Origin: Jimgerdemannia flammicorona
Taxonomy: Eukaryota > Mucoromycota > Endogonomycetes > Endogonales > Endogonaceae
Reading direction: 5' to 3'
NCBI GenBank assembly: GCA_003990745.1
Contig: RBNI01000006.1
Span: 1-64,000, forward strand
Length of the DNA stretch: 64,000 nucleotides
Shown piece by piece: positions 217-61,983 of this stretch. The notes below the pieces were generated by a model. The model made no database searches. It was given only the letters and a program-made list of their open reading frames with translations, and was not told the DNA's origin. Each line of letters starts with the position of its first letter. Positions within the stretch are counted from its first letter, which is position 1. The position numbers and the translations under genes were made by a program.

Positions 217-3200
217 CTAATGTCCAGCCAGCCCTACCCATACTGCTAAAACCCACTCTATAGTAAGCCAACCATTGCCAACACCCCCAACTAAATAAGG
301 TTTCAAATCCTCCCAGCGATCTCTCTCTCCATCTGGTCTCCTCACTACACCTAGCCGGTCCCCTACTGCTCTCCAAAAGTCCCCAAGAACTTTACACTCT
401 CCTAGCCAATGTTCTGACATTTGCACAAATCCCCCAAATTGCCCTACATTGTAACACTCCTCACAATCAAATTGGCCACCATCCACCAGATGCCCAGCAT
501 GGAAATTTAGCATGACATTCCTTCTCAGCATCTGCCACCATACTACCCAGAACTTGGGTGGAAGCCATCTCTGCACCTCAGCACTCCATGACCAGACACC
601 TGCCCAGTCCCACTCCTCACCAATCCCCACCACCTGCAAACTAATCGGTCAAAGATCCTGGCCAAGTCCTCGCTGACACTCCACCCCATCACAAATATCA
701 AACTCAGCAAGTGGAATACCCCCCAGAAGGAGTCTGTCCCACCTCTACATAGTTGGACCCCAGCTCCTCCCCCTTGTTTCCTCACCAGTATAGGCCTATC
801 TGGTGTGCTCCCTCTACCACCCCCCACCAGAAGCCCTTATACCATAGCTGTCAGCTTCCATTCAGGTCCACCAGAGAGAGCAAATCTCCTGAGGATCCCT
901 GAGGGGAGTACCTCATCTCCTGCACCTTCTGCATCAGCAGCACCCAATCTCCTCTCTGCAGTTCAACAGCTCTCTTCAACCACCAGGCTCACAGGCAGTG
1001 CAGCTGCTTAGGGAAATCCATAAGGCCTAGTCCTCTCCTAACCACCAGTGTTGCAAGAGTATCCCAACTGATCTGAGACCTCCTCCCTCCCCAAATCCAA
1101 TCCCTGGCCAGTTTCATCAGTCTCTTCACCACCCAAGCTGGGAAATCTAAGTAATAGGTCACATACCACAGCTTGAGGAACCAGTAGACATTCAGAATTG
1201 ACACCCACCCTACCAGGGAGATGTGGCGACCCCCTCAATCTCTAAGAGCCTCTCCCCAAATGACCACTCTCCTCTCCCACTACTCTCGAGGCAAGAAAGA
1301 ACCATATACTGAAAGAAAGATGCCCAAATACTGCACCACCTCTCCCATGGGGACAATTGTTCCAATGATGTCCCCTCCCACTAGCCTATTCCCTAACACC
1401 ATCATCTCACACTTATGCCAGTTGAGTTTCACCCCAGAGTGCACCTCATACCATTCCACTGTCTCCTTAAGTGCCTCAATGTCTGCCACTGATCCAAGTC
1501 CAACTACTATATTATCTGCAAAAGCCCCCACCTTCTACACTACACCATACATAGAGAGCCCTGCCACCCTCCAATGTATCCTATCCATCAAAGGTTCCAA
1601 TAAGAGAGCTTGAAGGATAGGAGACAGTGGGTCTCTCTGAGGAACTCCTCTTCCCAAGGGAAATGCCAAACTCCAGTGACCATTACACATTAGCGCCACC
1701 CTACTTCCCTCCAACAAATTCAACATAGAAGCCTGAAACTGTGGGGGAACCCCAATTCTGTCCAGCACCTTGCCTAGCCAAACCTGCAAAACATGGTCAT
1801 AGGCCTTCTCCTGGTCCAAAAAAACCAATCTACCATCCAGTCCGCATGCCCTGGCCTCTTCAATGATGCTGTGCACCCAGGCAGTCCCATCCCTGATAAG
1901 CCTGCCTCCTACAAAGCCCCTCTGCTCCTCACTCAGTACCTGTTGAGCAACCTTCTGTAGCCTTGCAACAATCATCTTAGTCACCATCTTCCTGTCCATA
2001 TCCAGAAGCATGATCAGCCTCCAGTTCTTCTAGTCCTCCCTCCTCTCCTTATCTTTGTACAATAAGGCCACCAGCCCTAAGTCCTGCTCACCCACCCACT
2101 TGTCATTTAGAAGAACATAGTCACATAGGGCAGCCATCTCTCCTAAAACTCCAGAGGCCTGTGCCATCTTCTTCCAGAAGTCCCAAGGTAATCCATCCTC
2201 ACCCGATGCCATCTCCAGCTTAGTTGCTGTAAGGACTCACTGAATTTCCTCCTCTTGGACCAGTAAGATCAAATCACCCAGTCTGTCTACTTGTAGCAGC
2301 CCCCACTCTTCCAGTGAGTCTTCAATTGCCTCTTCATCAACACCCCCTTCCTTCTCACTCTACAGACCCCTCCATCTTTCCTTCAGTACTCCCAAGATCT
2401 GTTGCATGCCATGCACCATATCTCCCTTGGCATCCAAGACCCCATCCTATCAGGTTCACACTCTTCTAGCTTAGAGGAGCCTTGACAGGTGTCTAGTGGG
2501 CTGCTCTCCCTCCTCAAGCCCCTGCCACCATAGTCTGGCAGCCATCCCTTTTATGTGAATCTCCTCCTCAGCTTGCAATATATGTTGCAGCTCTATCACC
2601 TCCAATTTCGCCCACTCCAACCTCCAATCCTCCACCACTTCAGAGCAAAGCAACTTGGCCCACTTCATCTGCAATCTAATCAGCCTATTGGAAGCATACT
2701 GCACTCTCTTCCTTCTCTGCCCCCCAGCCTCCCTACCAGCTCCTCCCCAATAAACCCTTATAGTCTCCTTCAGCCTCATCCACTAGACACCCACAGATAC
2801 ACCCTCACCTATCCAGGTGGCAATCTTCACTTAGATGCCTGCCACTCATGGGTCCCACAAACCCTGCTCAGCCAGCAGGGAGGAGTTAAGGCACCAATGT
2901 CTGGGTCCATCTCCACTCCCCCCAAACTGTCTCTGCCCCAATAGTCCCCAGTGGTCAGACAAAGGGCACCACTCTACTGCCAACTCCCTCTAAACATCAA
3001 CACCCCAATATTTAGCCATCAGAATCCAGTCAATCCTTGTACCCAGTCTATTTACCCAGTATGTATAGACCCTCTTGTCATCCCACCATATTCTGCCCAT
3101 ATCCCCTAAGGAGCTAAGGGTCTCCACCTCCTCCCACTTATCTAGTCCACCACTCCTTCCACCTGTACTCCTCCCTCCATCAGTTCGATCCAGCTATGAA

Positions 3201-9335: not shown

Positions 9336-9506
9336 GTAGCTGTAAGCGCACAACCTCCAAGCCACGGAAATCACACGCGATCTATGAACAAATCCGGAAA
9401 TCACCTGCAAGATCACGAAGCTGAGTCAAACAGAAGTCACAGTACACAAGGCTGAGTCAATACCAAGTCACGGAACACAAGATTCACACAAACGAGAACA
9501 AATGCA

Positions 9507-9512
9507 TATATA
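9507..9512 (+). promoter_or_regulatory. TATA-like box of LTR-B
   Basis: TATATA lies 70-75 bases before the ATG at 9582, and a TATATA stretch is kept at the matching place in copies B2 and B3. This would start transcription about 45 bases ahead of the LTR reading frame. Function is inferred. Confidence 0.4.
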
Positions 9513-9581
9513 CCCAGCCACGAGACGTGTCGAAACAGAGAACCAAAACAAATAACAACCACAACTTCCAAACACACAAAC

Positions 9582-10679
9582 ATGACCACCGAGATCTACA
9601 ACTGAATCTGCGCTGACATTTGGAATGCCATTGTCAACCGAGCCACACCCCCTCTGCCCCTCATGAATATCTACAGTCAAGCACCTCTCTACTTCATAGA
9701 AGCCCGATGGAATGCCCTGAACATGCTTAACAAGGCCCACCAGATTGGACAAATCTCAAGCTACTACCAGATCGGCTGCCTTCTGGAAGACATGGTTGAA
9801 CACCACCATGATACAGACATTACCCAGATGTCTCAACACCAGAAGCTCATTGCCCACAAACACCGAGAACTCTTTTATGAGTACAGCACCTTTATTCCCC
9901 GCCTCCGAGCCACTACCAGTGAAATGGTTGCTACCCTGTTCTATGGCCAAATCGATGACATGATACAAGAACTCAACCATAAGTATCTTGAGTACATAGA
10001 AACCACAGACAGAACCTTCCCACACCCCAACAATCACATCCTGCAAATGCCCCAAGTTGGATATGCCATGAAGGACGTCTACGATATAATCAACTTCGAC
10101 AAAGATGAAGCAGAAGACAATGATCCTTCCAATGCCGACATGACCTCAAGCCAAGGATCTCTTCCAACTCTGATCACACCGCCAACTCTGCCAATGAACT
10201 TAGAACAGTTCATAACCACATACGAGACTTATTGGGACAATGACCACTGGCACGAATACCAACCTGCATTCACCCCCGATTACTTCAACTACAATGAAGA
10301 GACTGGAGAATACAACCTGTACCTTCAGACAACCCTCGAGATCGAACCAACCACTCCACCACCTGAGTACGAGTGACATGAACTACAGCCGCCAGCATAC
10401 TACAACCCCGCGACTCATAGCGCTGTAACCTACAGAAGGTACGCAGACAGCGAATCCGATGAAAATGAAGATGATACACCACTTCTTCGCCCCCCAACAC
10501 CTTATCCAGCATATGAGACAGATGATGCTATCCTGTGCAACAGAGATGAAGTTCCAATGTATTACTACCTCAGTGAACAAGGAGAAGTAATCCGCAAACC
10601 ACTCTTCCTAGACGACTACTTCATCAGAGATGATGTCATCAATGGTGATGTCATCGAAGACTACCCAGACAGCGCCTAA
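9582..10679 (+). pseudogene. LTR-B-encoded protein, 365 codons, two TGA interruptions
   Basis: Reading from the ATG at 9582 the frame stays open to TAA at 10677 except for TGA at codon 8 and TGA at 10374. In copy B2 the codon at the first position is TGT and in B3 TAT, so codon 8 was not ancestrally a stop; the second is one step from CGA. An internal ATG at 9663 gives an uninterrupted 237-residue product. The N-terminal 150 residues look folded, with IEARWNALNMLNKAHQIG and YYQIGCLLEDMVEHHHDTD. The rest is rich in Pro, Tyr, Asp and Glu, ending FIRDDVINGDVIEDYPDSA. It has no recognisable domain. Its N-terminal part aligns with the LTR-A protein at 31696-32514. Role unknown; it sits where retroviruses place no ORF except accessory genes. 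Confidence 0.7.
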
Positions 10680-11380
10680 ACCTATAAATAGATTAGCAGT
10701 CATAGTATAGTTAGATTAGCCTTGTACGATGTGACTGTGAACTGACTCAGCAGTCAGACGATCTCTTGACATGTCAGATCACACTTGTACTACATGACTG
10801 CATTCCGACTCAGCAAAGCACTTAGTGCTACACCTATATTTAGCATAGTCCAGATAGCCCCTCACCAGTATAAATACCCCCTCCCCCAGACCTCAGAATC
10901 TCAGATCTGAACAATCTGAACACAACTCCTGAGCACTTCCCCACAATACCCTTCACACAAACCACTCTTAAGTAAATCTGCTCCCCGTTAGGTCCTACTC
11001 CTAACCCCATCACGAAATTTCCTAATTGGGTATTGTCTGCAGTGATACGCCAATTCAACTAAGCTGGTCTTAGTTTCTTGAACTTCCTGAAATATGGAAA
11101 ATCCTGAACATCCAGAACTAGTCCGAAAAAGGACTTTGGTTGAGATGTCAACCTGATCTTGAAATCAATAAGCGTAGAGGACGTACTACATATGAAATTG
11201 ATCTTGACTATAAGAAAACGGTCTTCCGGAATATCCAGAACTTCCAGAAAACTCTTTCAGAACTATGTAACGGTTACCCTAAAAAGCAACCCTCTTACAG
11301 TAGCTCTCTTAGTATCATTCACAGCCTATTCAATAACTATTCTGATTAGGTGGTTATTAATGATCTCATTATCTTGGCTC

Positions 11381-15773: not shown

Positions 15774-17810
15774 TATAAGTATATAATCTCTAAGCTATCA
15801 AAATTGCATATCACTCTTAGAATAAATTTGAAAATTACATATAAGATTATAAAGCTGAGTTAAACTGAAGTCACAGATCACAAAGTTAAATAAACTTGAA
15901 GTTATAGAATATAAGATATACAAAAATGGAATCTTACCAATCAGGACCAAAAGTATATATATACTAAATATATAGTACATCAAAATAGAGAACTACAATA
16001 AACCAAAACAACAACTACAACTCTCAAACATATACTTAGCTATGACTACTGAAGTCTATAACTGTATCTGTACTGACATTTGAAATACCATTGCCAACTA
16101 GGCCACAGCACTCCTGCTTCTTATAAATATCTACAGTTTAGCACTCCTCTATTTTGTAGAAGTTCATTAGAATGCCCTGAACATACTTAGTAAGATCCAC
16201 TGAATCAGACAAATCTCAAGCTACTATCAGATTGGCTACTTTCTGAAAGATATGGTTAACTATCACTATGATATAGATATTATTGAAATATCTCAATACT
16301 AGAAACTCATTATCTGCAAATACCAAGAACTCTTTTATAAGTATAGTACTTTATTCTCTATCTCTGTGTCATTACTACTAAAATGATTGCCATCCTAACC
16401 TATGGCCAAATCAACAATATGGTGTAAGAACTCAATCATAAATATATCAAGTATATCCAAAAGATAGATCCTTTTTACACCCAGATGATCATATCTTATA
16501 AATACCTCAAGTTAGATATACTATAAAGAATATCTATAATATAATCCAATTTAATAATAATGAAGCTGAAGATAATAATCTCTCTGATAATAATATGACC
16601 TCCAGCCAAAGATCTCTACTAACTCTAATTACTCTGCCAATCTTGTTGATAAACTTATAACAGTTTATAACTATTTATGAGACCTATTGAAAATGACTAC
16701 TAATATAAGTATTAATCTATATTTATACCTAACTACTTCAACTATAATGAAGAGACCAGAGAATATAATCTATACCTTCAGACAACTCTCAAGATAGAGC
16801 CATCAATTCTACTTTCTATATATAAGCAAAATAAAAAACAGTTACCAGCTTACTACAACTCTGCGATATATAGTACTATAATTTATTAAAGATATACTGA
16901 TAGTAAATTTGATAAAAGTGAAGATGATATACTTCTACCTCACCCATCAATACTATATCCAGTATATGAGATAGATGATATCATCCTGTGGGACAGTGAT
17001 ATAGTTTTAATATATTACTATATAAATGAATAAGAAGACATAATCTAAGAACTACTCTTCCTAGATAACTACTTCATTAGAGATAATATCATTAATAGTG
17101 ATCTCATCAAAGAATATCTGAATAGTATCTAAATCTATAAATAGCTTAGTAAGTCATTAGTATAGTTAGATTAGCCTTATATTATATAATTATATACTGA
17201 CTCAGTAGTCAGTTGATCTCTTGATATATCAGTTCACACTTCTATATAACTGTATTCTGACTCATCAAAGTACTAAAGTATTATATTCATATTTAGTATA
17301 GTCTAGATAATCTCTCATTAGTATAAATATCTCCTCTCTCAGATATCAGAAACTCAGATATCATTAAGCCAAGAATACTTCTCCATACAAATATTTCTTC
17401 ACATACTACTTCTAGTACTAGCTAATAGCAATATTATGAATAGTAAATAAATCTATTTAATAACTTACAAACTACTCTTAAGTAAACTTATACTATATTA
17501 GATCTAACTTCTAACCAGATCCTGAAATTTCCTAATTAAGTATTATCTGTAGCAATATGCTGATTCAACTAAGCTAGTCTTAGTTTCTTAAACTTTTTAA
17601 AATAAGAAAAATCCTAAACATCCAGAATAAGACTGAGAAAAGACTTTAGTCGAGATATCAACCTAATTTTAAAATCAATAAATATAGAGAATATACTCTA
17701 TATAAAATTAATCTTGATTTTAAAAAAAATAGTCTTCTAGAATATTCAGAACTTCTAGAAAAATCCTTCCAAAACTATGTAATAGTACTTTAATAAAGTA
17801 CTCTCTTATA
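15774..17810 (+). mobile_element. 3' LTR of gypsy-B (copy B2), heavily mutated
   Basis: It aligns with B1 from TATAAG (TGTAAG in B1) to CTCTTATA (CTCTTACA). Differences from B1 are mostly TpG-to-TpA and CpA-to-TpA, for example GATGTC to GATATC and TTTGG to TTTAG near 17645. The reading frame of B1 is present at 16043-17131 but full of stops; it still shows YNCICTD at the start, revealing the codon that became TGA in B1. Confidence 0.88.
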
Positions 17811-18705: not shown

Positions 18706-18977
18706 TTTTTTCTTTTTCTATAGGCTGTAGCCTCATTTATTAACTATCTATAACATGCTACATATCCTCATACAACATCAGTAGCCCCATTTCACAATAT
18801 TAACCCACCTTCACCCTCACCCAGCCTTGCACCTTTAGGGTGTGAGTTGTGACCTTACTGCCTGAGTAACTAGATCCTCCTACCTGGCCTGTCCCACTCA
18901 ATGGGTATGGGTTGTAAGCCCCAACCACCTCAAGTACTTGGCATCTAGTGCACCTGACCTACCCCTATTAGTACCTC

Positions 18978-20076
18978 CTGTCTTGCCCATCTAACCTGTC
19001 TTGCCTGTCTTGCCTGCCCGTGTTGCCCATGTTGTCTGTGTTGCCCGTCTTGCCCATTTTGCCCATCTTGCCTGTCTTGCCCATCTTGCCCGCTCGTATT
19101 GCCCATATCCCATGTTGCCTGTATTGCCTGTATTGCCCATATTACCCGTTTTGCCCGTTTTGCCCATCTTGCCCATGTCGCCTGTCTTGCCTGTCTTGCC
19201 CGCCTATGTTGCCTATATTACCCATATTGCCATCTTGCTGTCTTGCCCGTCTTGTCCATCTTGCCCATCTTGCCCATCTTGCCTGTCTTGCCTGTCTTAC
19301 CCGCCTGTGTTGCCTATATTGCCTGTATTGCCTGTGTTGCCCATGTTGCCTGTATTGCCCATTTTGCCCATTTTGCCCATTATGCCTATGTCACCTGTCT
19401 TGCAATCTGCCCATCTTGCCCATGTCACCCATCTTGCCGTCTTGCCCATCTTGCCTGTCTTGCCTGTCTTGCCCACCCGTGTTACCTGTGTTGCCTGTAT
19501 TGCCCACCTGTATTACCTGTGTTACCTGTGTTGCCCGCCCATGTTGCCCGTGTTGCCCATGTTGCCTGTGTTGCCCGTTTTGCCCATCTTGCCCATGTCA
19601 CCTATCTTGCCATCTGCCCATCTTGCCCATGTCGCCCATCTTGCTGTCTTGCTGTCTTGCTGTCTTCTGTCTTGCCCATCTTGCCCATCTTGCCTGTCTT
19701 GCCTGTCTTGCCTGTCTTGCCTGTCTTGCCCATCTTGCCTGTCTTGTCCATCTTGCCCATGTTGCCCATCTTGTCGTCTTGCCATCTTGCCTGTCTTGCC
19801 CGTCTTGCCCATCTTGCCTGTCTTGCCCATCTTGCCTGTCTTGCCTGTCCATGTTGCCTATGTTGCCCATGTTGCCTGTGTTGCCCCCCATGTTGCTGTG
19901 TTGCCCGTGTTGCCCACCCGTGTTGCCCGTGTTGCCCGTGTTGCCCATTTTGCCCATTTTGCCCATGTCACCTGTCTTGCCATCTGCCCATCTTGCCCAT
20001 GTCGCCCGTCTTACCATCTTGCCATCTTGCCCATCTTGCCCGCCTGTGTTGCCCGTGTTGCTGTGTTGCCCCTGTC
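18978..20076 (+). repeat. 9-bp minisatellite, unit (C/G)TTGCC(C/T)(A/G)T
   Basis: About 1.1 kb of 9-bp units, mainly cttgcccat, cttgcctgt, gttgcccgt, with occasional shorter or interrupted units. Because nine is a multiple of three and the unit lacks stops, several frames on both strands are open for 100 to 385 codons (Leu-Pro-Val/Ile repeats on plus, Gly-Gln-Asp or Gly-Lys-Thr/Met repeats on minus). These are not taken as genes. CpG is retained, unlike the surrounding transposons. It marks the left edge of the gene-like island. Confidence 0.92.
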
Positions 20077-20269
20077 TGTGTGGCTTAGCTCGCTCTGAGT
20101 GGTTTGAGCAAAAGAGGCGTCGGCTTGGTATGTTTCTCTGCTGGCTTGTCACAATAGTTATAGATAATATTGGTTAAAACGGAATTCGATTTCACCTAAT
20201 TATCTGACTGCGCCTCTGATTGCGATTCCTAAATTAGGAATTTCTCAACTGGGGTTTCCCTCGACAATG

Positions 20270-23997: not shown

Positions 23998-25527
23998 TGT
24001 CACTGAGTTCTTCAAATACATCAGATTCTCTTCAAGGTGTATCTCTTAGACTAACTCAAGTTTGTTATAAGTAAGTTCTTATTGGAGTGCCTTCCCAAGG
24101 TCTTATAGTCCTCAAACTTCTTATCTTTAACTGTCTTGTTATCTCTTAGATTGCTTGCAAGGAAGTGTGTATAAGTGAAACCAGAACTGACTTTATTTCA
24201 GAGGAAATATGAGAGATATTTATATAAAATATAATTCAATGATTGCTAAGATATAAAGCTAAATATAAACTCCAATAACTAAAACTACTAAGTTCCAGGG
24301 TCGGTACTGATAGTTGTACAGGTTCAGGATGCTGGCATTATCCAGTGTCATATCAAAATGCCAGTGCTGGAACAATTTCGCATCACCTCAGAATACCAGT
24401 GCTGGCATTATCTGGTGTTACATGAGAATACTGGTACTGGCATTATCCAGTGTAACAAAGAACTTAGAGCAGAAAGTTCAGGACCATGGGGGCTTCATCA
24501 TCATCATCATCACTGAAGGAGATGAGATCTGCAAATTTGTCATGCAGATCATGCGTTTTGCATACTTTAGATATGTCATGCGGGATGACATCATCGATGA
24601 TGTCATCATGTTCGGCTGTGGCGGGGAAATCAGGAACAAGATTTGGAGCTCTCTAGTCTATGAGGTTCTCTTCTACAAAATAAGGAACAAATGTGGGGTC
24701 TTGGGGAGATCTAACCCGGATGCTTGGACCTTGGAATACTGAGATCAATCCTTGTAGGAATTGATCTGGGTTGTCCTGGAGGATAGGGTGCCAGAAGTCT
24801 TCTACTTCTTTGCTATTAAGAGTGATAGTGGACTGGGCTTCTGTAGCCACCCTGACTTCTAGTGCATTGATACAGCAGGATGACAGGTCTCTGAAATCTG
24901 AGACTCTAACATACTCTAAGTTGGGAATCAACCATAGTGCATGCCTGAAGATCTGATGGATCTTCTTAGCTATCCTTATTTCACGTCTATCTATGGGAGT
25001 AACATCTTGTAGCTCTTGGGTACTGGCCTGTGGGAACTCCTGGCAGAGGAGGTTTCCTATTTTGTACTCCTACCACATTTGGAGGCATTCAGTAACAATG
25101 GTGATCCTTGTTTCCATTTCACGGTGGTAGAGAATGAAGTGATAAGGGTCTGCAGTACCCAGGTAGACACTAGGAGTCCTTCTTGAGTGGGTCCCCATAG
25201 CTCTTCTGATGTTTTAGAACATCCTTTCTTCAACTGAGGTGCCTTGGTGGTTCCTTGACCTTGAGGTTTGGTAGGCAGTAGGCATTTTATTTATAGTAAG
25301 TCTTTGAGCTATTTTGGGATTAGTGGTTCTTATTGGTTACTGCTACTACGGTTCCTTGATCCTTCTTTTATATTCTTCAGGATACTTATACTGTGGTCAC
25401 AATGACTCACAGTTGGTCATTATTACTCATCTTGTATGCTGTATAATCTTCTTGTGCTCCGATCTGGTGGCTTACAAGGAAAGACTGTCTCCTGTGCTGA
25501 TGTCATCATTCTGAGGTCACTGTTACA
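23998..25527 (-). repeat. 3' LTR of gypsy-A copy 1
   Basis: 1530 bp, TGTAACAGTGACC...CTCAGTGACA in element orientation. The LTR reading frame begins with ATG at 25285, 242 nt in, as in the 5' LTR, but is interrupted by stops; open pieces include 24931-24653. Many differences from the 5' LTR show that insertion was not recent. Confidence 0.9.
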
Positions 25528-25889: not shown

Positions 25890-27095
25890 TCTTGTATAGG
25901 TTCGTGGTATTTCTTGAGTCTGTTCCTATATATTATAGTAGACAGTATGGTCCCTGAGATTTTTCTAAGCCAGAAGGTGGTTCCCTTGATATCTTGCACA
26001 TAGAAGGGTCCTTCCCATTTGGGCTCCAGTTTTCATAACTATGAGGCTTCTACCATATTTCAATATAGTAGAATCTTTTCTCCAATTCAGATGGGTTCTA
26101 GGGCCTTGTGATTCTTTTTCACATTCTTCCTTATCAGTGCTTGTGACTTGGTAATATAATCTTCAGCCTTCTTCCTGATTTGGTGTAGTCTCCAGATTTC
26201 TGCATCAACTCATCTCCAAGTTAGGTCTAGATTTGTAGCTGAGGTTCCATCAGAATCTTCTTCTCTGAAGAGCAGCTCTCTTGGGGTAAAATGTGTACTC
26301 TGTGACCATATATCTTGTAGGATAGAGAGAGTGATTGAGAGATAGTTATCCCAATTCTCATATATCTCTGAGATCTTCGCTAGGATGTTCTTGAGGGTCT
26401 TGTTGGTTCTTTCTGTCTGTCTATTTTCTTGAGGATAGTATACAGTGGTCTTGATGTGCTGAATCTTGTATTTCTGATATATTATCTCATAGAATTTATT
26501 GACAAATTCTGTGCTGTAGTCTGTGGTGATTTGCTTCAGTGTCTTGTAGTGGCAGATGATTTCTCAGTACAAGAAGTTGGCTATAGAGAGGGCATTGGCT
26601 TCTTGTAATGCTCCTACCTCTATCCATTTGGTAAAGAGGTCTACAATAACTATAATATAGCAGTTTTCTGATAGTGTTACTGGTAGTAGTCCAATGATAT
26701 CCATTATGATGTGATAGAAGGGGATAGGCTCAATTCTTGATTACCTGGGTGCCTGGTCTTACTGATCTTGTTTCTGTTTTTGACACTTGTCACACTCTTT
26801 GACAAATTGGTGCAGGTCTTCTTCCATCTTGAGCCACCACATGGTTCTTCTTACCTTATCATATATGTTGGTTCCTCCTAAGTATCCTTGCTCATATACT
26901 TTCTTCATTACTTGATACTTCTTGTATTTGGATATTACTAGCTTTTCTCCTTTTCTGAGTGTAGTGTTGTCTAATTTAAACTGTTTCCAAGTCCAGTTGA
27001 TGATAGTGATTGTCCAGGGTTCAAGGTGGTTGGGCATCTTCCACTGCCCAAGATAGCTGATTAATCTATAGTATAGCTCCTTATTCATGTTGAAT
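25890..27095 (-). pseudogene. Gypsy-A copy 1 integrase
   Basis: The N-terminal zinc region ends ECDKCQKQK. The core shows MDIIGLLPVT (first Asp), TDYSTEFVNKFYE (second Asp) and QENRQTERTNKTLKN (Glu). A C-terminal GPF/Y-type block reads LEPKWEGPFYVQDIKGTTFW. The open part is 27214-26759; after it stops appear every 20-60 codons. The frame is one base off from RT/RNase H. It would join element cDNA to the genome. Confidence 0.85.
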
Positions 27096-28590
27096 GGTCT
27101 TGATGGGGGTGTTTTGGGGTGTCCTTGAGAGTGCATCAGCATTGATGTTGGTCTTTCCTGAGTGGTGCTTGACAGTACAGTCATACTCTTGCAGCCTGTA
27201 GATCCATCTGGCATATATTTCTTTGGAGTTCAGAGTGTGGAATAGCCAGGCAAGAGCAGAATAGTCTGTTTGAATGGTGAAGTGTTTCTCAGCTAGGTAG
27301 TAGTGGAACTTGTCTACTGCCCAGACTACTGCTAAGTATTCAAGCTTGCATGACTCATAGTTCTGTTCTACTCTGCGGATACCTCAGCTTGTATAGGAGA
27401 TGACATATTCATGTCCATCTTTCTTCTGAGCTAGGACTGCTCCAAGTCCTATAGCACTTGCATCTATCTGTAGGATGAATTCTAGGTTCCAGTCTGGTCT
27501 TCTGAGGATGGGTGCTTGGGTCAATCTGGTCTTGAGTTCATTGAAGATTTCTTGGCACTCCTTGGTCCATTCAAATTTGGTCTCCTTCTTCAGTAGCTCA
27601 TAAATAGGTGCTGCAATGTTGGAGTATCCTTTGATGAATCTTCTGTAGTAGCTGGCCAGTCCAAGGAAGGCATGGACTTCTGTAGTTGTTCTGGGTCTTG
27701 GATAGGCTGCAACAGCCTCGATCTTCATGGAGTCTGTATGGATTCTGGTCTGGTTGATGAGGTATCCTAGGTAGGCAATTTCTTGAGCAGCAAACTTGCA
27801 TTTCTTGGGCTTGATGTAGAGGCCATACTCCTTGAGCCTCTTGAGGGCTAGCTGTATGTGATTGACATGTTCCTGTACAGTATTGCTGAAGATGATCACA
27901 TCATCAATATAGACAAAGAGCCATTTTCCAATCTCATTGCTGAAGACTCTGTTCATCATTCGCTGGAAACTTGCTGGGGCATTGCACATTCCAATTGGCA
28001 TTCGCAGATAGATATAGGTGTCATCAGATGTAATGAAGGCTGATTTCTCACTGACATCTTAAGTGAGACCAATCTGATGGAAGTCTGAGAATAGATCCAA
28101 AGTGGTGTAGTATTTGGCTTTGCTTCTAAGGGTGGTAAGGATTTCTTGAATATTTGGCAAGGGCTGCCTATCCTTCTTGGTAATGGCATTGAGCTTCCTG
28201 TAGTCAATGCAGAGTCTTGGTGCAAACTCTCCAGGCTTGCTTCCTTTCTTCAGGGCTAGGACAATGGGTGAGGCCCAGGGGCTGATAGCTTACTTAATGA
28301 TTCTGGCTTCTTCCATTTCCTTGAGTTCTGCTCACAGCCACTCTCTGTAGGCAGGTGGTATGGGTCTGGCTTTCTGGTAGATGGGCTTGGTATCACTAGT
28401 GTCAACTTCATGATAGTACTTGGGTTCTTGATTGTGGATATCTCTAAAGTCTGTAGCAAGTACTCCTTCATTCTGGTACAGGATCTTGAGAAGTTGTTCC
28501 TCCAGAGGAAAGTTTTCTCCAATGGTATATATGTACTTGTTCTGGTCCTTGTCTTTCTTATACTCAAGTTTGGTAATCTTAGTGGCAGTA
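27096..28590 (-). pseudogene. Gypsy-A copy 1 reverse transcriptase and RNase H
   Basis: RT: APRLCIDYRKLNAITKKDRQ, then LRMPIGMCNAPASFQRMMNR and the intact catalytic box FVYIDDVIIFSNT. RNase H: ILQIDASAIGLGAVLAQKKD, FTIQTDYSAL, ending TNINADALSRTPQNTP. The longest open piece is 28001-27384. A few stops (TAA or TGA at former Gln, Arg or Trp codons) interrupt it. The catalytic residues seen are kept. Confidence 0.9.
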
Positions 28591-28960
28591 TAGGCTCCTC
28601 TTTCAGTAGATCTAAAGCCTTGTTCTCCTCTCTTGGTCTTGATGAGTTCAATGGCTTCAATGATCTTGGGCTTCTTGATTTCGTGAATCAGCATCTGGCC
28701 AATCCTGTCATGCTTCTTGACTTCGAAGGGGGTGGTGTGATTGTGATTTCTGACTATGAGGAAGATCTCACCAGTGTAATCAGGGTCAATTACTCCTCCT
28801 TCAACTGAGATTTCACTTTTGGCCAGACTGCTCCTGGTCTTGATAATTCCGGCATAGTTTTCTGGTAACTTGACTCCAATTCTAGTGCCAAGTAGAGTGG
28901 TGGTCTGTGGTTTGAGGGTAGCATCTTGAATACTAGCAAGGTCTATTCCTATGGCTTCTT
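28591..28960 (-). pseudogene. Gypsy-A copy 1 dUTPase domain
   Basis: All five motifs of trimeric dUTPases occur in order: an AGxDL-like LASIQD region near 28945, KTRSSLAKS-type motif 2, a DPDYTGEIFLIVRN motif 3, KKHDRIGQMLIHEI motif 4 and RGEQGFRSTERG motif 5. The domain lies between protease and RT in the same frame. It would hydrolyse dUTP to dUMP and limit uracil in element cDNA. Such domains are known in some retroviruses and in some fungal Metaviridae. A stop splits the copy between motifs 3 and 4 or nearby frames; copy 2 keeps motifs 2-5 in one open frame. Confidence 0.85.
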
Positions 28961-29399
28961 CAGTCTTGTATTCTGGGATCTTGGCTTTGAGGTGAAACTT
29001 CTTGACCTTGAGGGTGATGTCTGATTCTTATTCCTCCTCATCATCACTATCAGCTTGAAGCTCTGGGGGCTGGTCATCTTCTTCAGCTTTCCTTTTTACT
29101 TCAGCGGCTTCTTGCTCATGTTTCTATTGGTAGATTTTCCTGACTTCACTGATATAGGACCAGCAGTCATTCAGGTGTTCAGAGTAGTACATTCTAGTAC
29201 CATGGGGGCATCTTCCTTGAGGGGTATAGCTATCAATAATCTTGTTGTACCACTGCTCATCTGTGAGCTTGGGTGTCTTGCTCTTGTTCTTGTTCACCGA
29301 GTGCATGAAGACCTCTGTGTCTTCTTCATCTCCTTCCTCTATGTCTGATAGGACTCCTTTGTGGACATTGATAGAGACTCATACCTTTCTCCCTCTGTA

Positions 29400-29876
29400 G
29401 TTGATCTGCATCTTCTGGGCATTGAGATCAATGATGGCCCTGGCCTTGTGAAGCTATTAGTTGTCAATGAGGATGTCATAGTTGGTGGCACTTGTAACAA
29501 TCACGTCTACTGGGATAGTAGCTCCTCCTATCTTAATGGGGACTTCTCAGATTTTGCCAAGAGGGATAACTTGTATACCATCTGCTGTGACATAGACCAT
29601 CTTGGTGGACTCTTCAATGTCCCAACCTAGGTGGTCAATTGCCTTCTTGCTCATGAGGCATCCTTCAGCACCAGTATCAATGATGGCATCAAAGATACAG
29701 TCTTTGATCTGGCAGGGAGTATAGGCTGATGTCTTGTACTGGTCTTCAGATTCTTCACCTGAGTTCTCGGATTCTTCCTGTGCATTGTGAGCTTCTACAA
29801 TCTTGTACTCTTGATTCTTGGCAGTAGTTGCAAGTCCTACTCTCAACTGCTGTCTGAAGGCAGGGACTTCAGCTAG
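29400..29876 (-). pseudogene. Gypsy-A copy 1 aspartic protease
   Basis: IFDAIIDTGAEGCLMSKKAI carries the D-T/S-G active site; the second conserved region reads NYDILIGNQWLHKA. The frame is the same as gag and separated from it only by a TAG (29874) that is CAG in copy 2, so gag and protease were one polyprotein. Confidence 0.85.
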
Positions 29877-31109
29877 CTATCCAAAGGTAGTATTGACCTT
29901 CTGTTTCTTGAGATCCTTGTAGATGTCATACTGGTGGATCTTGGTCTTGCACAGCTTCTGTTCCTTCTTGCTTTCACTTTCTCCTGAGACTGGAGTAGTG
30001 CCTTCAATAATTTGGCAGGCAGCTTTGTCTAACTCCATGTCTTGATCAATCTCCTCAAGTTGGGTCTTACTTTGAATAGTGATAGCTGGGGTCTTCTTTG
30101 GTCTTCCAACTGGCTTGCTGTTGCTCTTCTTGTTATAGGGCTTAGACTGGGTTCTGGTACCTTCAGTAGCAGGGTAGAATTTGAGCTCCTCATAGTATTC
30201 TTCATCATCAGTGTTACCAATCTCCTTGATGACTACTGTATTGGTTTTTTCTCTAGTTCTGCTAGTATTACTTGGTTGGGCTTTGCGTCTTGTTTTGATC
30301 ATACAATTCTTTGCATAGTGGCCTTCTTCTCTATATCTGAAGCATATGATATTATTGCTTTCTTCTGTAGCAGCTGCAAATCTCTGTACTGGTCTCCTGT
30401 TCATGCTTCGGACTTCTCTAACAACATCACCAAGGTGTATAGTCATCTCGGCAAACTGCTTGGCAAGTTCTTCCACTGGATCAACTTTGGCTGTCTTGGG
30501 GGTAGGTAGGGTTGGTTGTCTGTTTATGACTGTAGCAGGTAAGATACTAGTTGGCTTTGATGGCTCCATCTTGATACTAGTTATTTTCTCTATTGAGTGT
30601 TCGACAGGGTGTCTGGCAGTCCAATATCTCTGTGCAAAGACCACTTTCTGATCAAGGGTCAGTGCAGCTAGGGTAGACCAGATTGCTAGGGCAATTTCAG
30701 GGTGAACTCCTTTGAGGAAAGTTGAATTCGCTATTTGTTCCTTGAGGCAGTTATCATAGCCAGCCAAGACAATCTGGTGGCAGATTTGGGTATAGAATGA
30801 GTTGGGATCTTCACTAAGTCCCTGGCAGATAGTATTGAGTTGATTCTTGAGAGCTTGCTTGATCTCTTCGATATAATATATTGTTCTGAGGAAGACCTTC
30901 ATGTTGATAAGTTTGGCTGCACCAGCATCAGCAATGGTGGCTGCATTGAACTTATCTCTAGCAAGTCCTCTGAGGCTGACTGGTAGAAGGGCCAATTGAG
31001 CATCTAAACCAAGGGCTCGTATGGCAGCGAATTGTTCAAAGTCTTCAATGAAGATCAGGATTGACTCTTCAGTAGTATATCTATAGAATGTGGGGGGATG
31101 CATTTCCAT
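29877..31109 (-). CDS. Gypsy-A copy 1 Gag
   Basis: A 410-codon open frame starting MEMHPPTFYRYTTEESILIF, close to the start of Gag proteins of this type (about 120 nt after the primer site). The N-terminal 200 residues are helical (LRGLARDKFNAATIADAGAA). A CCHC zinc knuckle is expected at about residue 255-268, but reads C-F-R-Y-R-E-E-G-H-Y-A-K-N-C, so the second Cys is Tyr. The C-terminus is basic and acidic by turns. It would coat the element RNA. The ancestral frame continued into protease. Confidence 0.9.
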   Translation of the reverse strand: MEMHPPTFYRYTTEESILIFIEDFEQFAAIRALGLDAQLALLPVSLRGLARDKFNAATIADAGAAKLINMKVFLRTIYYIEEIKQALKNQLNTICQGLSEDPNSFYTQICHQIVLAGYDNCLKEQIANSTFLKGVHPEIALAIWSTLAALTLDQKVVFAQRYWTARHPVEHSIEKITSIKMEPSKPTSILPATVINRQPTLPTPKTAKVDPVEELAKQFAEMTIHLGDVVREVRSMNRRPVQRFAAATEESNNIICFRYREEGHYAKNCMIKTRRKAQPSNTSRTREKTNTVVIKEIGNTDDEEYYEELKFYPATEGTRTQSKPYNKKSNSKPVGRPKKTPAITIQSKTQLEEIDQDMELDKAACQIIEGTTPVSGESESKKEQKLCKTKIHQYDIYKDLKKQKVNTTFG

Positions 31110-31211
31110 CTTGTCTTGAATTCTTGCAGGGGTGACTCTTGTAGTCAGGGTAGTTGTTGTGGGGGTTGTTCATTTTTCAGCTTGAAAGTGAGGGATTTGT
31201 CTTGAATCACC

Positions 31212-31229: not shown

Positions 31230-31695
31230 TGTCACATAGTAGTTGCTGAGTCCTTCAAATATGCCAGATTCTCTTCAAGGTGTATCTCTTAGACTAACTC
31301 AAGTTTGTTATAAGCAAGTTCTTATTGGAGTACCTTTCCAAGGTCTTATAGTCCTTAAACTTCTTATCTTTAACTGTCTTATTATCTCTTAGATTGCTTG
31401 CAAGGAAGTATGTGTAAGTGAAACCAGAACTGACTTTATTTCAGAGAAAATAAGAGAGATATTTATATAAAATATAATTAAGATATAAAGCTAAATATAA
31501 ACTCTAATAACTAAAACTACTAAGTTCCAGAGTCAGTACTGATGGTTATACAGGTTCAGGATACTGTTATTATCCAGTATCATATCAAAATGCCAGTACT
31601 GGAACAATTTTGCATCACCTCAGAATACCAGTGCTGGCATTATCTGGTGTTATATGAGAATACCAGTGCTAGCATTATCCAGTGTAACAAAGAAC

Positions 31696-32514
31696 TTAGA
31701 GCAGAAAGTTCAGGACCATGGAGGCTTCATCATCATCATTATCACTGAAGGAGATGAGATCTACAAATTCATCATGCAGGTCACGCATTTCATGTACTTC
31801 AGGTATGTTGCACAGGATGATGTCATTGATGATGTCATCACGTTTGGCTGTGGCAGGGAAATCAGGAACAAGATCTGGAGCTCTCCAGTCTATGAGGTTC
31901 TCTTCTACAAAATAAGGAACAAATGTGGGGTCTTGGGGAGATCTAACCCAGATGCTTGGGCCTTGGAATACTGAGATCAATTCTTGCAGAAATTGATCTG
32001 GGTTGTCCTGGAGGATAGGGTGCCAGAAGTCTTCTACTTCTTTGCTATTGAGGGTGATAGTAGACTGGGCTTCTGTAGCCACCCTGGCTTCTAGTGCATT
32101 GATATAGTGGGATGACAGATCTCTGAAATCTGAGACTCTAACATACTCCAAGTTGGAGATTGACCATGGTATATGCCTGAAGATCTGATGGATCTTAGCT
32201 ATCCTCATTTCACATATATCCATGGGAGTAGTATCTTGTAGCTCTTGGGTACTAGCCTGTGGGAACTCCTGGCAGAGGAGGTTTCCTATTTCATACTCCT
32301 GCCACATTTTGAGGTATTTGGTAGCAATGGTGATCCTTGTTTCCATTTCACAGCAGTAGAGAATGAAGTGATAAGGGTCTGTAGTACCCAGGTAGACACT
32401 AGGAGTCCTTTTTGAGCAGATCCCCATGGCTCTTCTGATGTCTTGAAACATCCTTTCTTTAACTGAGGTGTCTTGGTGGTTTCTTGACCTTGAGGTTTGG
32501 TGGGCAGCAGGCAT
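31696..32514 (-). CDS. LTR-A-encoded protein, 272 aa, intact frame
   Basis: ATG at 32514 lies 242 nt inside the LTR and the frame runs 272 codons to the stop at 31696. Residues 20-120 appear folded (KERMFQDIRRAMGIC, YHFILYCCEMETRITIATKY, EYEIGNLLCQEF, KIHQIFRHIPWSISNLEYV). A middle block reads EARVATEAQSTITLNSKEVE and DFWHPILQDNPDQFL. The C-terminus is acidic (SFSDNDDDEASMVLNFLL). No known domain is recognised. Decayed copies at the same place occur in four other LTRs (ATG near 25285, 54268, about 61747 as ATA, and 62666). It shares order and spacing of motifs with the LTR-B protein. This is the only copy with no stop, although other ORFs of the element are broken. Confidence 0.75.
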   Translation of the reverse strand: MPAAHQTSRSRNHQDTSVKERMFQDIRRAMGICSKRTPSVYLGTTDPYHFILYCCEMETRITIATKYLKMWQEYEIGNLLCQEFPQASTQELQDTTPMDICEMRIAKIHQIFRHIPWSISNLEYVRVSDFRDLSSHYINALEARVATEAQSTITLNSKEVEDFWHPILQDNPDQFLQELISVFQGPSIWVRSPQDPTFVPYFVEENLIDWRAPDLVPDFPATAKRDDIINDIILCNIPEVHEMRDLHDEFVDLISFSDNDDDEASMVLNFLL

Positions 32515-32594
32515 TTCATTTGTGGTAAGTCTTTGAGCTATTTTGGGATTAGTGGTTCTTATTGGTTGCTGCTACTGTGGTTCCTTGATCCTTC

Positions 32595-32601
32595 TTTTAT
32601 A
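32595..32601 (-). promoter_or_regulatory. TATA-like box of LTR-A
   Basis: TATAAAA in element orientation lies 81-87 nt before the ATG at 32514; the same stretch is kept in the LTRs at 54345, 61826 and 62581. It would place transcription start just upstream of the LTR reading frame. Confidence 0.45.
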
Positions 32602-32756
32602 TTCTTTAGGATACTTGTACTGTGGTCACAATGACTCACAGTTGGTCATTATTGCTCATCTCGTATACTGTATAATCTTCTTGTGCTCCAATCTGGTGGC
32701 TTGCAAGGAAAGGCTGTCTTCTATGCTGATGTCATCATTCTGGGGTCACTGTTATA

Positions 32757-33000: not shown

Positions 33001-33690
33001 TTTTTTTTTTTCCTAGTTTCAGTAGAATATATCTTTGACTCTCTATTAAATATACTAAATTCTCTATAGTTTGTATAAGTGAATGTTAATTCTACAGATA
33101 GTACATACTTTTGCTCATTACAATTGTAAAGTATTAGCTATTTCTATAGCTGAAAATTTCCATAATAAAGTTGATTAATGTTTGCTAACTAATAATTACT
33201 ATTCTTAATTCTTTAATAATATTAATAGACTAATATTATTGTTGCTAATTATATTCTGAATATGAAAGTTTTCTATTATCTATCTTAGTAATATGTTTAG
33301 AGTAACAAAGATGATATTTTATAAATATTTTGTAAAATTCTATATTAAGTCCAAAAAACTTTAGTTTATTAATACTTTCTTTCAATACTAAAGTCTATAG
33401 TCCTGATGGTTTCTTACTTTTAAATATCTAATTTGTTGAAAAATTATATATACTAAAAATAGTAATTATCTTATTGATATAGAGATATTAAAAAAATATT
33501 ATTAGTGATCTTTTTCTCATTTATATATATCTATCTATCTATCTCAAATAATATATACTTTATAATGTTATTTAATAATTTTCTCAAAATTTATAATATA
33601 TAAAGTATCTAATTATTATTATTAATTATAGATATTAGTAATATCTATAATTTAAATAATAGGTAAATATAGAAAAGCAGTAGAATAAGA
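33001..33690. other. AT-rich region, no gene seen
   Basis: Very AT-rich with T runs (33000-33012) and short TA repeats (33530-33545). It may continue the copia remnant, but no motif could be read with confidence. Confidence 0.4.
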
Positions 33691-33699
33691 GAATAGTGA

Positions 33700-34300
33700 G
33701 TAAGGAGAATGATAAATAGTAAGTAAGCAGAAGAATAGTAAGTAAGCAGAAGAATAGTAAGTAAGTAAGAAAATAGTGAGCAAGCAGAAGAATGGTAAGT
33801 AAGTAAGAAAATAGTGAGCAAGCAGAAGAATAGTAAGCAAGCAGATAAGTAAGCAGAAGAATAGCAAGTGAGCAGAAGAATAATAAGTGAGCAGATAAGC
33901 AAATAGAAGAATAGTGAGTGAGCAGAAGAATAGCAAGTAAGCAGGAGAATAACAAGTGAGTAAGTAAGAGAATAGTAAGTGAGTAGAAAAATAGTGAGCA
34001 AGCAGAAGAATAGTGACTAAGTAAGAGAATAATAAGTAAGCAAGAGAATGGCAAGTGAGTAGAAGATAATAAGTAAGTGAGTAAAAGAATAGTGAGTGAG
34101 CAGAAGAATAGTGAGTGAGCAAGAGAATAGTAAGTAAGTAGAAAAATAGTGAGTGAGTAAGAAAATAACAAACAAGTAGAAGAATAATGAGTAAGTAGAA
34201 GAATGATAAGTAAGCAGAAGAATGACAAGTGAGTAGGAGAATAGCAAGTGAGCAGAAGAATAGTAAATGATAAATAGTAAGTAAGTAAGTAAGAGAATGA
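33700..34300 (+). repeat. Minisatellite of GTAAGTAAGCAGAAGAATA-like units
   Basis: About 600 bp built from variants of agtaagtaagcagaagaat and agtgagtaagaaaatag, about 16-20 bp each, with changing order of modules. Open frames on the minus strand (Leu/Ser/Tyr-rich, up to 197 codons) are repeat artefacts. Confidence 0.85.
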
Positions 34301-34549
34301 TAAATGAGTAATATATTAGAAATAATAGACTGAGCAGTAAGTATTGAAAGATAAGATATTGAAGTAAGTAAGATGAGTGAGTCTTGAAAATATATAAATA
34401 ATATTTTTCAAAAATAAGTATAAAAAAACTACAAAGTATAGATTTTATTTAACTTGAAAAAATAAGTAGTAAGATATTAGAAATAAGTATTGGAAACATA
34501 TGAGTACAACTCTCCAAAAGATTACAAAATATAGAATTTATCTAACTTA

Positions 34550-36277: not shown

Positions 36278-38406
36278 TATAAGTATACAATCTTTAAGCC
36301 ACTGAAATTACACATTACCCTCAGAACAAATTCAGAAATCATATATAAGATCACAAAGCTAAGTCAAACTAAAGTTATAGATTATAAAGCTGAGTCAATT
36401 TAAAGTTACAGAATACAAGATTTACAAAAATAGAATCTTATCAATTAAGACCAAAAGCATATATACTGAATATATAGATATATCAAAATAGAGAACTACA
36501 ACAAATCAAACAAATAACCATAACTCTCAAACATATATATACTAAATATAACTACTAAAATCTACAATTATATCTATGCTGATATTTGGAATACCATTAT
36601 CAACTGACCCACAGCTCCCCTGCCCCTCATAAATATCCATAGCCTAGCACTTCTCTATTTTGTGAAAGTCTGATAGAATACTCTGAACATGTTTAGTAAG
36701 GTCCACTGAATCAGACAAATCTCAAGCTACTATCAGATTAACCACCTTCTGGAAGATATAGTTAGTCATCACTATGATATAGATATTACTAAAATATCTC
36801 AATATCAGAAACTAGTGCTCCCAAAATGAATATTCAAATCAATTCAAAGTAGATATATATGATATTCAAATCGAATTGATTCAATTCAATTTGAATATTA
36901 TTTTGATTTCCAAATTAGAATATAAACATTTTTCTCAATAACTCTATGAGGTTTTATCCAATTTTAGTGATCTTGGTGTTATTGGAAAGTCATTATAGAG
37001 AGCTTTTCAGTGATACTAGTTTCATCAAAATTGGATGAAAACTCATGGAGTTATTGAGGAAAATGTTTGTGTCCTAATTTGGAAATTAAAATAATGTTTG
37101 AATCAAATTAAATCAATTTGAATACTATATATATCTACTTTGAATTGATTCAAATATTCATTTTGAGAGTACTACCAGAAACTCATCACTTACAAATACT
37201 GAGAACTCTTTAATGAGTATAGCACCTTTATTCTTTATCTCTAAGTTACTACTACTAAAATGATTATCACTCTATATTATGGCCAAATTAATGATATGGT
37301 ATAAGATCTCAACTACAAATATATTGAGTATGCTCAAACTATAGACAGACCCTTCTCACACTCTAATGATTATACTCTATAAATGCTCTAAGTTGGATAT
37401 ACTATGAAGGATGTCTATGATATAATCTAGTTTGATAATAATAAAGTAAAAGATAATAATCTCTCTGATACTGACATGATCTCTAGCCAAAGATCTCTGC
37501 TAACCCTAATTACTTTGTTAATCTTACTGATAAACTTACAACAATTCATAACTACCTGTGAGACCTATTGGGATAATGATCACTAATATGGTTCCAACTT
37601 ACTATTATATAAATAAACAGAGAGATATAATCCAAGAACCTCTCTTTCTAGATAACTACTTCATCAAAGATAATATCATTAATGGTAATCTTATTGAAGA
37701 ATATCCAGACAATATCTAAATCTATAAATAGCTTAGCAGTCATTAGTATAGTTAGATTAGCCTTATACTATATAACTACATACTGACTCATTAGTTAGAT
37801 AATCTCTTGATATGTCAGTTTACATTTATACTACATAACTATATTCTGACTCAGCAAAGTACTAAGTACTACAACTACATTTAGCATAGTCCAGATAGCC
37901 TCCTATTAGTATAAATATCTACTCCCCCAGACCTCAGAAACTCAGATATAAACAGATAGAAATATAGATAAGAACTTCTGAACACTTCTCCACAATATTC
38001 CTTTATACATTACTTCTAGTATAGTAATATTATAAATAGTGAATAAATTTATTTAATAACCTACAAACTACTCTTAAGTAAATCTGTACTATATTAGGTC
38101 CCACTCCTGACTAGATTCTGAAATTTTCTAATTAGGTATTATCTATAGCAATATACTAATTTAACTAAGCTGGTTTTAGTTTTTTGAACTTTCTGAAATA
38201 TAGAAAATTCTGAACATCCAGAACTAGTCCAAAAAAGGACTTTGATTGAGATGTTAACTCAATCTTGAAATCAATAAGTATAGAGGATATACTCTATATG
38301 AAATTGATCTTAACCTTAAGAAAACAGTCTTTTATAATATCCAGAACTTTCAGAAAACTCTTTCAGAACTATATAACAGTATTTCTAATAAAGTAACCCT
38401 CTTACA
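36278..38406 (+). mobile_element. Solo LTR of gypsy family B (copy B3)
   Basis: Edges TATAAG and CTTACA match B1. Five bases, gaaag, are repeated at 36273-36277 and 38407-38411. It contains a 360-bp foldback insertion and has lost about 320 bp within the LTR reading frame near 37590. The frame is interrupted by many stops; its codon 8 is TAT. Confidence 0.9.
36814..37173. mobile_element. Foldback-type MITE, 360 bp, inside LTR-B3
   Basis: AGTGCTCCCAAAATGAATAT at the left pairs with AGTACTCTCAAAATGAATAT from the right end, and the complementarity continues for most of each half, so the element can fold into one long hairpin. It is absent from LTR copies B1 and B2. Flanks atcagaaact (36804-36813) and accagaaact (37174-37183) form a 10-bp target duplication with one change, a length expected of Mutator-like insertions. 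No coding capacity. Confidence 0.88.
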
Positions 38407-39019
38407 GAAAGTAAATCAGAATTAGAATCTGAATCTGAATCTGAATTAGAATCAGAATTAGAATTAAAACTAGAATTAGAATTAGAAGATAGTAATGATG
38501 AAATAGCTACCTTAATGCTAATCTTTGCAGAATATCCAAAAGAAGACCCAAGAGAATTTCTTGATGGAATTGAAGGAATCACAGCTCTGAAAAACCTCTC
38601 TATTGAAAGAAAAATTGCTATTTATAAGATCCAACTTAGAGAACTAGTCAGAGGAATTTTCAGCTAAGTAAGAAATGATATATACTCAGACCTTGGAGTA
38701 GCTATTTATGTAGCAGCAATCTGAGAAGCAGAGTATAGAGCTATAACCCACTGGCTTATTGAGAAGTATATAGAAAATAAGATCCATCATAAGGTCCAAG
38801 AATCTATTATAGAAATGAAAATGAATTTTAGAGAATCATCCAGAGCATTCTTTATAAGAATTCAAAAGAAAATGTATGTAGCTAGGTTTAATGCTACTAA
38901 CCAAGACATCATAAGTCTAATGATCTTTATAAATGAGATTCCTCTAAACATTGCTCAGCATGTTTACATCCTAGGCATCAGAAGACCTAAAGAGCAAGTA
39001 GATATAGCCTAAGAATTTT

Positions 39020-60397: not shown

Positions 60398-61983
60398 TGT
60401 TATATAGTAGTTACTGAGTCCTTCAAATATACCAGATTCTCTTCAAGATATATCTCTTAGACTAACTTAAGTTTGTTATAAGAAAGTTCTTATTGGAGTG
60501 CATTCCCAAGATCTTATAGTCCTCAAACTTCTTATCTTTAAACTATCTTGTAATCTCTTAGATTGCTTGCAAGAAAGTGTGTATATTGTACTAAGTAGAC
60601 TGACTTTATTTCAAAAGAAATAAGAGGGGTATTTATATAAAATATAATTCAATAGTTACTAAGATATAAAGCTAAATATAAATTCCAATAACTAAAATAA
60701 AATACCAGAACAGAAAAAACTGCTAAGTTCCAGGATCAGTACTGATGGTTGTACAGGTTCACAATACTGGTATAATTTCAGTAGTACAGAAAAATGGTGC
60801 TAGAATAATTCAGTGTCACAACAGAATGCCAGTACTGACATAATTCAATATCATATTAGAATGCCAGTGCTGGTATAATTCAGTATCACCAAAGGACTTT
60901 AGAGTAGAATATTCAAGACCATAGGGGCTTCATCCTCATCAGAGGTCAGAATGTCTTCAAAGGAGATGAGGTCTACAAATTCATCATTGTTACATAGGTT
61001 ACATGTTTCATATATGTTGTACATCTTGCATATGTCATGTGAGATGACATCATTGCTGATGATATTATCATATTCAGCAGTAGCAGAAACAAGGATATCT
61101 GGGGCTCTCTAGTCTATAAGGTTCTCTTCCACAAAATAGGGAACAAATGTGGGATCTTGGGGAGGTCTAACCTGGATGCTTGGATCTTAGAATACTGAGA
61201 TCAATCCTTGCAAGAATTGGTCTGGGTTGTCCTGGAGGATAGGATGCCAGAAGTCTTCTATTTTATTACTATTGAGAGTAATAGTAGACTGGGCTTCTGT
61301 AGCCACCCTGGCTTCTAGTATATTGATATGGTGGGCTGACAGGTCTCTGAAGTCTGAGACTCTAATATACTCCAAGTTGGGGATTGATCATGGTACATGT
61401 CTGAAGATCTGATGGATCTTCTTAGCTATTCTTGTTTCATATATATCTATAAGAGTGGTATCTTGTAGCTCTTGAGTGCTGGCCTGTGGGAATTCTCAGT
61501 AGAGGAGGTTTCCTATTTCATACTCCTGTCACATTTAGAGGCATTCGGTAGCAATAGTGATCCTTGTTTCCATTTCATGGTGGTAGAGGATATAATGATA
61601 AGGGTCATCAGTACTCAGGTCGATACTAGGAGTCCTTCTTAAGTGGGTCCTCATAACTCTTCTGATATCTTGGAACATCCTTTCTTTGACTGAGGTACCT
61701 TAGTGGTTTCTTGATCTTGAGGTTTAGTGAGTAGTAGGTATTTTATTTGTGGTAAGTCTTTGAGCTATTTTGAGATTAGTGGATCTTATTGGTTACTACT
61801 ACTATGATTCCTTGATCCTTCTTTTATATTCCTCAAGATATCTATATTATGGTCACAATGACTTACAGTTGGTCATTATTGCTCATCTTGTATGCTGTAT
61901 GATCTTCTTATACTCTGATCTGGTGGCTTGCAAGGAAAGACTATCTTCTGTACTAATGTCATCATTCTGGAGTTACTATTATA
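60398..61983 (-). repeat. 5' LTR of gypsy-A copy 2
   Basis: About 1586 bp, outer edge mutated to TATAATAG. The start codon of the LTR frame is ATA here. Open pieces include 61375-61187. The primer site TTGGCACCTATTGCCTGG follows at 60379-60396. Confidence 0.88.

Follow-up and report, generated by a model that had tools for sequence, protein, structure and literature searches.

The present study revealed that two retrotransposon families of the fungus Jimgerdemannia flammicorona carry an open reading frame (ORF) within their long terminal repeats (LTRs), and these ORFs almost certainly code for proteins under selection. On balance, we lean toward regarding the ORF as a U3 accessory gene in two Ty3/gypsy families, with N-termini that are probably kin and a regulatory role as the likeliest function. 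LTRs are ordinarily regarded as non-coding. The window, namely, the whole stretch of DNA analyzed, comprises 64,000 nucleotides with a G+C content of 36.9%, and the source assembly comprises 134.8 Mb in 7754 contigs. Rfam and tRNA scans of the whole window gave no matches. The families are designated A and B, and family B is represented in the window by the following features.

9336-9340 and 11300-11304: target site duplication (TSD) GTAGC of the window LTR-B, edges read
9341-11299, plus strand: solo LTR-B with the ends TGTAAG...CTTACA, from an alignment to the LTR of the copy on contig C3549 (L061/L062), edges read
9582-10679, plus strand: LTR-B ORF of 365 codons followed by TAA; this copy contains two TGA stops
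15774-17808, plus strand: decayed relative of LTR-B
36278-38407, plus strand: decayed relative of LTR-B with an insertion

Since GTAGC is present on both flanks of 9341-11299, the window LTR-B is a solo LTR. TGA interrupts its ORF at codons 8 and 265 (9603-9605 and 10374-10376, respectively). The original prediction, which had been made from the sequence alone, gave this frame 365 codons, two stops, and an ATG 241 nt from the LTR edge, and all of these values were reproduced. It also attributed LTR-B to a chromovirus, which is right for the family on the basis of the C3549 copy. This copy has LTRs of 2033 bp (96.1% identical, TSD TTCGC) and a chromodomain, identified by eye, just before the 3' LTR (L062). 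It is internally deleted and contains a dUTPase, a protease, and part of the reverse transcriptase (RT). Chromo domain matches are also present in the genome. Family B is a Ty3/gypsy chromovirus, with a chromodomain at the C-terminus of pol, TG...CA LTR ends, and a 5-bp TSD. The family-A element was located on the opposite strand.

24003-25527, minus strand: 3' LTR of the family-A element, in which the ORF copy is broken
26210-31169, minus strand: internal part, with gag (assigned from its position; no match in Pfam), protease, dUTPase, RT, and integrase
28332-29027, minus strand: dUTPase in pol of family A (in family B, L110:1283-2212, plus strand)
31234-32752, minus strand: 5' LTR of the same element, edges approximate, from a self-comparison of the window
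31696-32514, minus strand: LTR-A ORF of 272 codons, uninterrupted here

The two LTRs of this element are approximately 1.5 kb long and 90.8% identical to each other. Family A is Ty3/gypsy, with protease, RT, and integrase in that order between the LTRs. The pol of each family includes a dUTPase, which precedes the protease in B and follows it in A. This differing order suggests separate gains or a rearrangement. As predicted, the frame is present in both LTR families at the same offset, 241 nt from the edge in B and approximately 238 nt in A.

A first look at the genome yielded 3287 candidate places for B and 4390 for A, which are places rather than copies, and all of those scored matched (150/150 for B and 142/142 for A). 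Thirty loci per family were then picked by protein. dN/dS at these loci was 0.096 in B (over 237 codons) and 0.295 in A, while the two shifted frames of the same loci gave 1.33 and 1.89 in B and 0.73 and 0.98 in A. Third codon positions accounted for 69% of the differences in B and 48% in A. A protein-picked set favors intact proteins; therefore, the analysis was repeated with 19 B and 20 A copies chosen by the non-ORF DNA downstream of the frame. Of the 19 B copies, 15 could be aligned over more than 90%, three were truncated by contig ends, and one was aligned over only 55 nt. pN/pS was 0.17 over the 15 full B copies and 0.39 over 14 full A copies. The aligned parts of the LTR-B ORF contained no indels in any of the 19 DNA-picked copies. 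The window copy of LTR-A is itself three bases short, and another natural open copy was used as the reference for indels in A. The LTR-A ORF had 46 indels representing 27 distinct events. Sixteen of these events were multiples of three, as were all seven that recurred in more than one copy, and each of the 11 frame-shifting events was confined to a single copy.

Among the DNA-picked copies, 3/19 in B and 1/20 in A were without a stop or frameshift over the part covered, and such low numbers are as expected with the decay of copies after insertion. When the count was confined to copies whose alignment covered 90% or more of the frame, 7/26 in B and 9/30 in A were free of stops. Most stops were located at sites occupied by CGA, CAA, or TGG in other copies. 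Relatives were also detected in other public data: P0001 for the LTR-B protein (66% over 59% of the query), and P0002-P0007 (57-83% identity) and P0008 for the LTR-A protein. A decayed group, A2, matched A at approximately 36-50% in all eight stretches fetched, two of them in two pieces. On viral contigs, 95 and 89 stretches fitted the patterns and none were confirmed.

The positions of putative promoter elements relative to the ORF are as follows.

9507-9512, plus strand: TATA box P1 of LTR-B, 75 nt before the ATG
10869-10876, plus strand: TATA box P2 of LTR-B, a putative gag-pol promoter approximately 190 nt downstream of the ORF
31435-31467, minus strand: TATA box P2 plus AATAAA of LTR-A, from sequence
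32596-32601, minus strand: TATA box P1 of LTR-A, 87 nt before the ATG

TATA[AT]A was found 74-79 nt before the ATG in all 29 B copies examined and 86-87 nt before it in all 30 A copies. A second TATA followed the ORF in 18 of the 21 B copies that extended far enough (at 185-200 nt) and in 22/25 A copies (at 205-250 nt), and AATAAA came after this TATA in the copies inspected. Another chromovirus family in the same genome (three loci) has an LTR of approximately 405 bp without the ORF, in which the longest stop-to-stop frame is 68 codons. Its core, TATAAATATCTC...AATAAA, resembles the core behind the LTR-A ORF. Based on this resemblance and the TATA and AATAAA after the ORF, we placed the ORF in U3, and this sequence-based placement ahead of an ordinary core promoter is likely. 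In 16/21 B copies, a further TATA was present no more than 15 nt from the end of the ORF, and, thus, promoter assignment is not unique.

Two alternative interpretations concern the frame itself and its position. If the frame were fortuitous, with no protein behind it, stops in most single copies would be natural, and this is what the copies show. However, dN/dS, the distribution of differences over codon positions, the indel pattern, and the origin of stops mostly from CGA, CAA, or TGG are at odds with this interpretation, as are relatives that retain 57-83% protein identity in other data. With pN/pS pointing in the same direction, we rejected a fortuitous frame as extremely improbable. Alternatively, P1 may drive the genomic RNA, in which case the ORF would be the first in a long leader (R/U5). 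The spacing of P1 is the most constant, which fits this proposal. However, a second TATA and AATAAA lie behind the ORF, the post-ORF core of LTR-A is like the whole core of the ORF-less LTR of approximately 405 bp, and R would need to exceed 1 kb. A leader ORF is, therefore, improbable, and we retain the location in U3.

The original prediction also proposed that the A and B proteins form one family, and the residues and spacings that it quoted are present in the translations. This proposal was upheld in part. Approximately 125 N-terminal residues probably share descent, judging from the performance of an A profile on B sequences and from the proposed register, on which BLASTP, hhalign, and HMMER agree. 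As a statement about the proteins as a family, it is unproven: hhalign was not significant and the reciprocal test was weak. The absence of a significant score in a profile-profile comparison had been named beforehand as evidence against one family, and no significant score was obtained. Single hhalign comparisons of A and B gave E values of 0.042, 0.021, and 0.17, and the score was reached by 66/600 column shuffles at full length and 55/600 for the N-terminal part. When A2 and the relatives were left out and A was used by itself, the profile alignment of the N-termini was matched by 143/1000 shuffles; the local profile alignment of the N-termini was matched by 164/3000. The B profile on A sequences was weak or negative, and the reciprocal N-terminal test was marginal (11/1000 for the maximum and 38/1000 for the mean). 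AlphaFold models of both LTR proteins were unusable (mean pLDDT 33.2 and 35.9).

With an earlier A profile, the best B copy scored 5.2 bits, which was reached by 7/2000 shuffles. Three further sets of results were suggestive of common descent. BLASTP gave an E value of 0.059 for one A-B pair and 1e-4 for P0006 against a B copy, the latter being one of several possible pairs. The score of a semiglobal alignment of the N-terminal profiles was reached by 21/3000 shuffles. An A-group profile, broadened with A relatives including A2, placed four of seven B copies at 7.0-7.5 bits (2/3500 shuffles reached this). Clearer separation was obtained with an A-group profile of 23 rows, which had a median of 3.0 and a best score of 13.1 bits on 75 B ORFs. 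The comparison set consisted of 311 other ORFs, many of them non-coding frames; 217 received a score, the best score was 2.9 bits, and none exceeded the median B ORF. We also used 20 distinct B N-terminal segments (residues 8-130), which were cut once the register had been seen. Their mean was 10.1 bits with A2 and 8.0 bits without it, and 0/1000 column permutations reached the score in either test. Reversed segments scored 0.5 bits or less, compared with 3.0-15.5 bits forward. Reversal preserves helical periodicity, whereas permutation destroys it.

Regarding the C-terminus, the original prediction that it is acidic in both proteins held, with a pI of 4.05 for residues 151-365 of one B protein and 166-276 of one A protein. 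Both also have a DDVI-like motif near the C-terminus, and CRE-like DNA was found in the window LTR-B ORF.

10631-10638 and 10646-10653, plus strand: two CRE-like octamers TGATGTCA inside the LTR-B ORF

In the DNA of this C-terminal region, the CRE-like octamer TGA[CT][GA]TCA occurred 2.96 times per segment in A (25 copies) and 1.55 times in B (22 copies), in comparison with 0.09 and 0.07 per segment, respectively, in base shuffles. The exact form TGACGTCA was present in A only. An additional CRE-like site was found approximately 220 nt before the ATG in 20/25 A copies, and six of the eight A2 stretches had an octamer near the matching place. The C-terminal alignment of A and B reached a score matched by 0/3000 shuffles in semiglobal mode and 12/3000 in local mode. 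Since CRE-like DNA can explain part of this likeness, it was not counted toward homology. The DDVI motif may reflect DNA, protein, or both.

These results need to be weighed against the possibility that the two proteins are unrelated and entered U3 of their respective families by separate captures, in which case the N-terminal likeness would be due to chance and helical composition, and the DDVI motif to CRE-like DNA. The non-significant hhalign results, the weak reciprocal profile tests, and the CRE-like octamers at the DDVI motif in both families are in line with separate capture. The differing dUTPase order also indicates that the elements are unlike in other respects. On the other hand, column permutations did not reproduce the scores of the A profile on B, reversed segments failed, three programs agreed on one register, and the ORF occupies the same place within the LTR. 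We regard separate capture as fairly unlikely and prefer common descent of the N-terminal part.

No Pfam match was found for the two LTR proteins or P0003, while P0006 had one sub-threshold match, and PDB sequences gave no match at E values up to 10. Derivation from gag was rejected because there was no significant similarity to the gag of either family (best E 0.70). Each of these LTRs has the appearance of a small gene, in which TATA box P1 and the ORF are followed by an ordinary LTR core. The ORF would be transcribed from P1, and the core (TATA box P2 and AATAAA), with transcription from P2, would serve gag-pol. A protein with an acidic tail, supplied in trans by full elements, and possibly by solo LTRs as well, may then act on LTR transcription or silencing, perhaps via bZIP sites. 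Such a regulatory role is a reasonable possibility, which we place slightly below an even chance. A more specific version appears unlikely as a whole: every LTR, even a solo one, would be a full gene for an acidic regulator; this transactivator would raise the transcription of its own LTR via CRE-like sites, partly within coding DNA; and the family would be old enough to be common to two gypsy lineages, a Tax-like solution that evolved in fungi. The protein may instead limit its own element or serve particles or packaging. The dose of a gene that lies in the LTR would follow copy number, in line with self-limitation, and the present evidence fits activation and repression equally well. Ty1 p22 exerts copy-number control and is a gag product, whereas the LTR proteins show no similarity to the gag of A or B. 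We consider limitation or a particle function to be rather unlikely, and continue with a regulatory role on the LTR as our working interpretation.

Tax of HTLV-1 and Tas/Bel1 of foamy viruses act on LTR transcription. Under the regulatory interpretation, the LTR-A and LTR-B proteins would resemble them in their acidic activation region and in the CRE-like sites of U3. This likeness would be one of function, and, in contrast to the proposed placement of the LTR-A and LTR-B ORFs, Tax and Tas are not wholly encoded inside U3. The nearest architectural precedent is sag of mouse mammary tumor virus, which, in the available text of its description, is an accessory gene located mostly in U3 with promoters within the LTR (PMC4667437). 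The comparison is by position, given the likely placement of the LTR-A and LTR-B ORFs in U3; sag belongs to a mouse retrovirus, whereas LTR-A and LTR-B are fungal and have their own TATA before the ORF. ORF0 of plant Retrosat2, RIRE3, and RIRE8 is similarly an extra ORF, with a function described as unclear, upstream of gag-pol in long-LTR gypsy elements; however, according to the accessible part of the source, it lies between the LTR and gag-pol and, thus, outside the LTR (PMC3485330). In bdelloid rotifer LTR retrotransposons, ORF3 encodes an enzyme, coiled-coil, or env-like protein, and the same types of accessory ORF recur across unrelated lineages, several with a dUTPase in pol; however, ORF3 is a separate third ORF beside gag and pol, and the available text does not describe an LTR-encoded one (PMC5408684). 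The fungal gypsy elements of Postia, Phanerochaete, and Tuber (Tmt1) share a dUTPase in pol with A and B, at varying positions, while an LTR-encoded protein is not described in the accessible portion of that study (PMC2864245). The available parts of the fungal literature cited (among PMC10787394, PMC3248453, and PMC2864245) do not mention an LTR-encoded protein, and the open-access titles and abstract openings searched do not describe an ORF in a fungal LTR.

The thousands of candidate places point to LTRs with a selected protein frame. Were the protein to be produced, action in trans could extend to solo LTRs. It can now be directly tested whether Metaviridae, like some retroviruses, encode regulators in their LTRs.

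Several other elements were noted. A further, inverted copy of LTR-A is present at 61435-64000 of the window, with arms at 61435-61990 and 62417-62972 and 426 nt between them. A family-A-like LTR fragment at L113:889-1260 (73% to A) adjoins the short-LTR chromovirus, contains three CRE-like repeats, and represents a further A subfamily. The stretch at 1535-2029 (minus strand) of the window looks, by eye, like a fragment of a non-LTR retrotransposon reverse transcriptase. At 18958-20177 and 33635-34450 of the window, there are two long tandem repeats that are degenerate and open in several frames, with Cys/Pro/Leu-rich and Leu/Ser-rich translations.
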